Positions 2,110 through 3,555 of a stretch of DNA of 64,000 nt are shown piece by piece (position 1 is the stretch's first letter; the number at the start of each line of letters is the position of its first letter). The position numbers and the translations under genes were made by a program. Source of the stretch: Morganella morganii (GTDB lineage Bacteria; Pseudomonadota; Gammaproteobacteria; Enterobacterales; Enterobacteriaceae); assembly GCF_019402645.1 (NCBI RefSeq), contig NZ_VKKS01000002.1:62001-126000 (forward strand), read 5' to 3'. A model generated the notes under the pieces. That model did not search any database. It saw only the letters and a list, made by a program, of their open reading frames with translations, and had not been told where the DNA came from.

Positions 2110-2380
2110 TATTTTTTATCCACAGCGCAACGGGCAAGGTTATTCACATCCCGGGTGTTATGACACACTTTTCTGCACAGAGTTATCCACAGGCCGGTTT
2201 TGTCGGCTGAATCACAAAATTCCGCTAAATACCGGAAGAAGGTATATATAACATATTGATATTTATATGTTAATTTAATTTATGTGAATTGTGTGACGGC
2301 TCTCTTGTATTTTTTCTTCACATTGATAGGCAAGGTCTTTTTATATTATTCACAACATTGAACATTGTGGATAACTTATC
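2110..2380. promoter_or_regulatory. datA: datA-like DnaA-box cluster with IHF site
   Basis: This gene-free stretch between tRNA-Gly copy 3 and queG holds five 9-mer DnaA boxes. Perfect TTATCCACA lies at 2116-2124 (+), 2183-2191 (+) and 2366-2374 (-); TTATTCACA lies at 2140-2148 (+) and 2346-2354 (+). A full match to the IHF consensus, TAACATATTGATA on the minus-strand reading, lies at 2249-2261 between the third and fourth boxes, within very AT-rich DNA. In E. coli the datA locus sits between the same genes and uses DnaA boxes plus one IHF site to promote hydrolysis of ATP bound to DnaA. The positions are seen; the function is inferred from synteny and layout. The rest of 1704-2397 shows only small hairpins, for example ATCACC/GGTGAT around 1976-1990. 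Confidence 0.75.
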
Positions 2381-2397: not shown

Positions 2398-3555
2398 TCA
2401 GGCATCGCGCGGTAAACCTTTAGAAATAGCGCGGATCAGACGTTTTTGCTGTGAAGTCTGTATTTCGATACGTGATTCATCTCTTTTGGCATACTGACGG
2501 GCAATCGCCCAGCGGATATGCTCATCAAGCCAGTCGGCCAGTCCGGTTTTTTCTGTCAGTGCAATAACAATGTTGTCTTCATACGGCGCGTTTCCGAGAG
2601 CGACACTGATATTTCTCAGCCAGCGCAGATACCCGATGCGCCGGATAGCCGAACCCTCAGTCACCCGCAGGAAGGTGGCTTCATCCCAGGCAAACAAATC
2701 CAGCAGTTCCGGCGTATGCAGGCGTTTGCGCGGGGAAAAATCCGCCTCGTCTGTCAGCTGTGAAAAGCGGTTCCACGGGCAGATAAGCTGGCAGTCATCA
2801 CAGCCGTAAATGCGGTTTCCCATCAGCGGGCGGAATTCTTCGGGGATTGCGCCCTCCAGCTCAATGGTGAGATAGGAAATACAGCGGCGTGCATCCACGG
2901 TGTAGGGCGCGACTATGGCCTGAGTCGGGCAGGTGGTCATGCAGGCGACACAGCGGCCGCACTGTTCTTCAGCAGGTGCATCAACCGGCAGCGGCAGGTT
3001 GATCAGCAGTTCGCCGAGGAAAAACCAGGAACCGGCCTCACGGTTTAATATAAGTGAGTGCTTACCAACCCATCCGAGACCGGCTTTGGCTGCCAGCGGG
3101 CGTTCCAGTACCGGCGCGGAGTCCACAAACGGACGATAACTTAGGGTATTTTCCGTGGCGAGTTCATCACACTGTGCCTGAATCCGCTCTCCCAGCTGTT
3201 TCAGGCGCTGGCGCAGAAGCTTGTGATAATCACGCCCCAGCGCATAGCGGCTGATGTAACCCTGTTCCGGATTTTGCAGCACAGCAGCAAAAGCCGCTCT
3301 GGCAGGAAGATAATTCATCCGCACACTGATCACCCGCAAAGTGCCCGGCAATAATTCATGAGGGCGCGCGCGCATCATGCCGTGGCGTGCCATCCAGTCC
3401 ATTTCTCCCTGATACCCTGCGTCCAGCCACGCCTGTAACTTCGGCTCTTCCGCGCTGAGGTCAGTATCACAGATACCGACCTGCTGAAAGCCGAGTTCGC
3501 GCCCCCACTGTTTTATTTGGGTGGCAAGTTGCTGTAAACCGGGATGAGTGCTCAT
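2398..3555 (-). CDS. queG: Epoxyqueuosine reductase QueG
   Basis: Cobalamin- and iron-sulfur-dependent enzyme that reduces epoxyqueuosine to queuosine at position 34 of GUN tRNAs. The protein is 385 aa, against 379 in E. coli. Two ferredoxin-like 4Fe-4S motifs are visible, CGRCVACMTTCPTQ and CDDCQLICPWNR. The ATG at 3553-3555 gives MSTHPGLQQLATQIKQWG, matching the E. coli N-terminus; a longer frame upstream has no family similarity. There is no strong ribosome-binding site. It is divergent from tsaE, whereas in E. coli nnr lies between the two. Confidence 0.96.
   Translation of the reverse strand: MSTHPGLQQLATQIKQWGRELGFQQVGICDTDLSAEEPKLQAWLDAGYQGEMDWMARHGMMRARPHELLPGTLRVISVRMNYLPARAAFAAVLQNPEQGYISRYALGRDYHKLLRQRLKQLGERIQAQCDELATENTLSYRPFVDSAPVLERPLAAKAGLGWVGKHSLILNREAGSWFFLGELLINLPLPVDAPAEEQCGRCVACMTTCPTQAIVAPYTVDARRCISYLTIELEGAIPEEFRPLMGNRIYGCDDCQLICPWNRFSQLTDEADFSPRKRLHTPELLDLFAWDEATFLRVTEGSAIRRIGYLRWLRNISVALGNAPYEDNIVIALTEKTGLADWLDEHIRWAIARQYAKRDESRIEIQTSQQKRLIRAISKGLPRDA

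Follow-up and report, generated by a model that had tools for sequence, protein, structure and literature searches.

The DNA analysed here, a stretch of 64,000 nucleotides of Morganella morganii referred to as the window, is part of contig 3 of a 3.79-Mb genome assembled in 9 contigs. It carries, in this order, orn, three tRNA-Gly(gcc) genes on the plus strand (1408-1483, 1518-1593 and 1628-1703; ARAGORN, Rfam RF00005), a gap of 694 bp, the convergent queG on the minus strand (2398-3555; TIGR00276 at 504 bits, cut-off 200), tsaE, an ORF whose translation suggests an amidase, and mutL. The closest named QueG among the best 80 of 594 confirmed candidates belongs to Morganella psychrotolerans (90%), and five genomes of the same genus encode QueG proteins with 90-96% identity. 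The genome also encodes DnaA, IhfA and IhfB, each above its model cut-off. Only the tRNAs reach the gathering score of a known RNA family in the region, since a YrlA match over them falls below it, and no gene was assigned to the approximately 410 bp between the last tRNA-Gly gene and the first DnaA box (1704-2115). A terminator-like stem lies at 2087-2103, directly before that box (four such sites were found, with 1.5 expected).

Five DnaA boxes and one consensus binding site for IHF (IBS) occupy positions 2110-2380 of the gap. The motif scan placed TTATCCACA at 2116-2124 and 2183-2191 and TTATTCACA at 2140-2148 and 2346-2354, all on the plus strand, and a further TTATCCACA at 2366-2374 on the minus strand, while the IHF consensus WATCAANNNNTTR is matched by TATCAATATGTTA at 2249-2261, also on the minus strand. 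An earlier note on this DNA had claimed five boxes, three of them perfect copies of TTATCCACA, together with a full-consensus IHF site; both claims hold, as all five boxes are perfect matches to TTWTNCACA and the IHF site has no mismatch. Perfect boxes number 11 in the whole window, five of them inside this segment, and 5000 dinucleotide shuffles of it gave a mean of 0.10 and a maximum of three, none reaching five (0/5000). Five perfect boxes in 271 bp are beyond chance. The IHF consensus occurs four times in the 64 kb against 2.16 expected, and at least four matches were obtained in 19 of 100 shuffles; the match alone is thus not significant at this scale, and what gives it weight is that relatives have it at a constant position between two boxes.

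The same arrangement is found at datA of E. coli, for which strain ES9 (L001) served as reference under the same scanning rules. There too the locus lies between tRNA-Gly genes, of the glyVXY type, and queG, so that the shared neighbours named in the earlier note are confirmed by ARAGORN, TIGR00276 and the reference itself. Box numbers follow the published descriptions, except for 'box 4', an inferred name for the one that comes after box 3. Boxes 1, 7, 2, the IBS and box 3, followed by the likely counterpart of box 4, have a common order and strand in both species. Relative to box 2 (1456 in L001, 2183 in the window), box 1 is placed at -67 bp in both (1389 and 2116), box 7 at -12 bp in both (1444 and 2171), the minus-strand IBS at +65 and +66 bp (1521 and 2249), box 3 at +162 and +163 bp (1618 and 2346), and the minus-strand box 4 at +174 and +183 bp (1630 and 2366). 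The successive intervals from box 1 to box 3 are 55, 12, 65 and 97 bp in E. coli and 55, 12, 66 and 97 bp in the window, equal within 1 bp. The comparison drawn in the earlier note, in which its third box, the IHF site and its fourth box were set against E. coli box 2, IBS and box 3, therefore stands, but the counterpart of box 7 had been overlooked. This site, of low affinity and essential in E. coli (TTGTAAACA there), reads TTCTGCACA at 2171-2179 on the plus strand and forms a double DnaA box with box 2, with a gap of 3 bp. The available part of a ChIP-seq study gives the E. coli double box as cTTGTAAACAgagTTATCCACAg and reports that DnaA prefers box pairs 2 or 3 bp apart (PMC11317965); the window equivalent at the same place is tTTCTGCACAgagTTATCCACAg. 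Boxes 7, 2 and 3 of the window are all on the plus strand, and the essential datA boxes share one direction according to the accessible text of PMC5742627.

Differences are also present. The window has an extra box at 2140, for which E. coli has no perfect counterpart, stronger boxes 1, 7 and 4, and five perfect boxes against two in the same stretch of L001. The perfect minus-strand box that is the likely counterpart of the stimulatory box 4 follows box 3 by 20 bp instead of 12, and about 410 bp of mostly empty DNA precede box 1, compared with 18 bp in E. coli, whose box 1 overlaps the tRNA terminator (PMC10950094, available part). Judged by sequence, the locus is an ortholog of datA, well above chance.

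Conservation was followed by a QueG-anchored search, in which the 80 named loci are the best 80 of 594 confirmed candidates, for which reason this sample leans to QueG proteins similar to the query; it comprises 39 loci of Enterobacterales, 23 of Vibrionaceae and 18 others. The 39 Enterobacterales loci, that of E. coli among them, come from 25 named genera and from two records without assignment. Within these best 80 of 594, the box 2-IBS-box 3 module is present in 39/39 Enterobacterales loci, with box 2 perfect in every one, the IBS starting 64-67 bp and box 3 157-165 bp further on. Box 3 matches TTWTNCACA perfectly in 36 of the same 39 (best 80 of 594), the imperfect ones being those of Brenneria (L045), Kluyvera (L052) and a Pluralibacter MAG (L055). 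The IBS has 0, 1, 2 or 3 mismatches in 14, 16, 6 and 3 of the 39 named loci (best 80 of 594), so that 30/39 have at most one mismatch, compared with 1.5% of shuffled spacers; on the opposite strand such a site is found in 1/39. Among the 41 named loci from outside Enterobacterales (best 80 of 594), no pair of perfect plus-strand boxes at 157-165 bp was found, one locus having a pair within 160-169 bp that falls outside that range, and the 18 loci of Alteromonas, Shewanella, Aeromonas and similar bacteria have no perfect box in 450 bp (18/18).

Closer to the window, the module is present in 25/25 genomes of its GTDB family that have any queG match, its own included. A lack of conservation in close relatives, which the earlier note had named as a refutation, is not seen: boxes 2, 3 and 4 and a mismatch-free IBS are retained in 6/6 genomes of the genus, in which box 1 is perfect in four and the extra box at 2140, by eye, in three. 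The queG flanks of 15 genomes from other families were read, leaving aside G048 (L153, where the stretch lies inside queG) and G052 (partial queG): 12 have no perfect box, G039 has the module with two mismatches in its IBS, in G045 the boxes accompany a poor IBS of four mismatches, and G055 has a cluster of the Vibrio type described below. No queG match was found in G043, of a family of approximately 2-Mb genomes taken for Pasteurellaceae. The proposal of a datA-like locus that predates Escherichia is supported by order, strand, spacing, synteny and breadth (39/39 among the best 80 of 594), and the module is probably much older than E. coli on these comparisons.

A search independent of the flanking gene, for box 2 followed by box 3 after 147-158 bp, covered 394 genomes of the order, with the backwards pattern as control. 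Of the 34 genomes in the family of the window, 30 have the pair, and the remaining four measure 0.8-1.2 Mb; outside the family the pair occurs in 13 of 360 genomes, against 3/394 for the control. It was placed beside queG for seven of the 30 (G000, G006, G017, G024, G028, G029 and G030); of the 13 outside the family, placement covers four, two adjoining queG (G039 and G045) and two lying elsewhere (G038 and G057), and because of the latter the pair alone is not fully specific. The genome of the window has one further match, a cluster of three perfect same-strand DnaA boxes (G000, L135:1501-1686; contig 1, approximately 232449-232634) between rpsU and tsaD, as identified from the reading of ORFs, with no fitting IHF site and no IHF consensus nearby.

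Where chromosomal position could be estimated, with dnaA standing in for oriC and lengths rounded, the distance between dnaA and queG amounts to 5.0-12.6% of the genome in the eight single-contig genomes that combine datA with an unbroken queG, including 5.0 and 6.1% in two genomes of the genus. The corresponding values are 15.7 and 20.3% in two single-contig genomes without datA, and 8.4% of its contig in G055, the one multi-contig genome in this comparison, G033 being omitted for its broken dnaA. In G031 the module is 28% of the genome from dnaA. In this genome queG is split in two and contains a stop, and in G033, which is only 49% complete, it is in several pieces with many stops; both nevertheless retain box 7, box 2, the IBS (one and three mismatches, respectively), box 3 and, as judged by eye, the blocks of the spacer. 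A module that is intact beside a broken queG speaks against passive hitch-hiking, although the decay may be recent.

The two spacers of the module are conserved to different degrees. In an alignment of 58 Enterobacterales loci (the 39 named ones from the best 80 of 594, 18 further ones and the window), with near-duplicates weighted, the box 2-IBS spacer has 0.25 bits per column, which is nearly random, and the IBS-box 3 spacer 0.81 bits, values that composition alone would set at 0.06 and 0.17 bits; the difference was reached in 0/20,000 permutations, in which columns are not independent. Conserved blocks in the IBS-box 3 spacer (2286-2345 in the window) read, by eye, [AC]GTTA, GATCRCTTGnC, a T tract, TTGAWnGnCAAnG and TTTTTA at the end next to box 3. 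Three candidate explanations were considered and rejected. A second, opposite IHF site, suggested by eye, has best matches with 3-4 mismatches in 54/58 loci and with two in two loci, and 3-4 mismatches were also usual in the yardstick, a shuffle of another stretch with fewer offsets and hence not a matched control. RNAalifold gave no conserved RNA structure on either strand, and column shuffles, of low power, gave none either. The 17-aa ORF yjeV of E. coli, as source of the TTTTTATTTTTA block, lacks its ATG in many aligned genera by eye, which makes a coding role unlikely. The blocks are not accounted for by IHF, RNA structure or yjeV. According to the available part of a review (PMC10380432), IHF is held more stably on datA under negative supercoiling, which also stimulates DDAH, and, as a speculation, an easily melted or bent stretch beside box 3 would fit such an effect.

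A cluster of DnaA and IHF sites also adjoins the 3' flank of queG, with constant geometry, in 23/23 Vibrionaceae loci (L072-L109, from Vibrio, Photobacterium, Aliivibrio and Enterovibrio, among the best 80 of 594). In all 23 of these loci (best 80 of 594), box A is a plus-strand TTATCCACA, preceded at 12 bp by a 9-mer that ends in ACA and has 1-4 mismatches, and followed at 18-19 bp by an inverted TTATCCACA or TTACCCACA and at 120-125 bp by a minus-strand IHF-like site. The latter has 0, 1 or 2 mismatches in 8, 8 and 7 loci (best 80 of 594), and two or fewer occur in 9.2% of shuffles. Plus-strand box D, which is TTTTCCACA in 21 loci and TTGTCCACA in two, lies 262-281 bp after box A and 142-156 bp after the IBS, and a minus-strand box, TTAANCACA in 21 and TTAGTCACA in two, precedes it by 48 bp (again in the 23 loci from the best 80 of 594). 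The intervals of 120-125 and 142-156 bp differ from the approximately 65 and 97 bp of datA, and since this geometry is unlike that of datA, we use the term datA-like for the cluster rather than assigning it to datA.

Because the Enterobacterales module and this cluster occupy the same place, a locus of the datA type may predate the split between Enterobacterales and Vibrio, and we lean towards common descent of the two. That the Vibrionaceae cluster arose independently and is unrelated to datA is a serious though somewhat doubtful alternative, which draws on the differing geometry, including the inverted box after box A, and on the 12 of 15 other-family queG flanks without a perfect box, for which losses or a favourable tree would be needed. 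It also draws on the shared string ACAGASTTATCCACA, which is a common context of strong boxes. Tried as a datA signature, this string was rejected as not diagnostic, since together with a loose IHF-like half it is present in 111/394 genomes in many contexts, and the shared flank ACAGAS, which accompanies strong boxes in many families, likewise cannot decide on common descent. Against independent origin are the same position by queG, with tRNA-Gly or tRNA-Met upstream wherever it was callable within 1500 bp, and the order of box, minus-strand IBS and plus-strand box common to 23/23 loci (best 80 of 594). Common descent is the reading we prefer. Apart from this cluster, a recurrent stretch of the ACAGASTTATCCACAAACACACTATATAG type is found in many genomes on another contig than the queG match (e.g., G055:C2:1167176-1167237), apparently a conserved DnaA-box promoter region.

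As for function, we are fairly confident that the locus is the datA of Morganella, most likely working as in E. coli, from which binding, bending, hydrolysis and timing are inferred; control of DnaA-ATP would follow from homology. DnaA-ATP would bind cooperatively to the double box formed by boxes 7 and 2 and to box 3, IHF at 2249-2261 would bend the DNA and thereby bring together the DnaA molecules on boxes 2 and 3, and boxes 1 and 4 and the extra box may contribute binding and titration. A pure sink, in which strong boxes titrate DnaA without stimulating ATP hydrolysis, would suit the greater number of perfect boxes than in L001, but it is improbable, since a sink requires neither fixed spacing nor an IHF site and both are kept in 39/39 named Enterobacterales loci (best 80 of 594). 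Still less likely is a role in transcription, with DnaA and IHF blocking read-through from the tRNA-Gly genes or regulating a transcript towards queG. The locus does sit between convergent units, behind a terminator-like stem, and read-through transcription of the E. coli datA is reduced by box 2 together with the terminator (PMC10950094, accessible part); however, promoter-like sites are near expectation (3 vs 2.0), the best of them (1320-1347) belongs to the tRNA genes, and the fixed box-IBS-box spacing is left unexplained. Such a role could coexist with that of datA, and given the long stretch before box 1 and the respacing of box 4, the published read-through control may differ here. That the locus is a relic without selection, retained through the adjacency of tRNA-Gly and queG, is scarcely credible even with synteny holding in many relatives, as the box 2-IBS spacer is nearly random whereas boxes and IBS are conserved, and the module is intact beside the broken queG of G031 and G033, recent as that decay may be.

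Other DnaA-box clusters resemble the datA of Morganella in part. DARS1 and DARS2 are also non-coding, and DARS2 uses IHF (PMC5742627, in the text available), but in E. coli they lie upstream of uvrB and mutH (PMC11317965, likewise), whereas the locus in the window has the neighbours of datA and its box 2-IBS-box 3 layout; for DARS2, with its core boxes I-III, an IBS and Fis sites near mutH, the comparison covered the neighbours. The origin oriC shares double DnaA boxes with a 3-bp gap, one being described for E. coli in the available part of PMC11317965, and an IHF site, but the window locus is on a different contig from dnaA in this assembly. Extra-origin clusters of Bacillus subtilis and Streptomyces coelicolor repress untimely initiation and are described as analogous to datA in the accessible text of PMC10950094. 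DARS-like sites are reported for Vibrio cholerae, as is an RctB site of chromosome 2 likened to datA (PMC6090056, available part), and the available part of a study of box density includes one Salmonella (PMC12371093). The accessible parts of the literature, including PMC4585315, PMC12371093, PMC6090056, PMC3937223, PMC6284228 and reviews, contain neither a map of datA outside E. coli nor a datA-like site for chromosome 1 of V. cholerae, although primary datA papers may include such alignments. Specialists would probably anticipate datA in species close to E. coli; what is most likely new is how deep the conservation reaches, the fixed geometry, the cluster in Vibrionaceae and the conservation of the spacer.

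The published conservation survey covers 59 E. coli genomes, as stated in the available part of PMC4585315. Near-constant spacing across the order makes the box 2-IBS-box 3 requirement of E. coli an evolutionary constraint and not a detail of one species, and it provides natural variants for testing. For work on E. coli too, the conserved blocks of the spacer provide a concrete target. Tentatively, a DnaA/IHF locus of the datA type could already have been present in the ancestor of Enterobacterales and Vibrionaceae, re-spaced in the latter to a geometry constant in the family, with the IBS-box 3 spacer of Enterobacterales containing a further sequence-specific element needed for datA function or its timing. 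The Vibrionaceae cluster is a candidate datA-type site in bacteria that have to coordinate two chromosomes.
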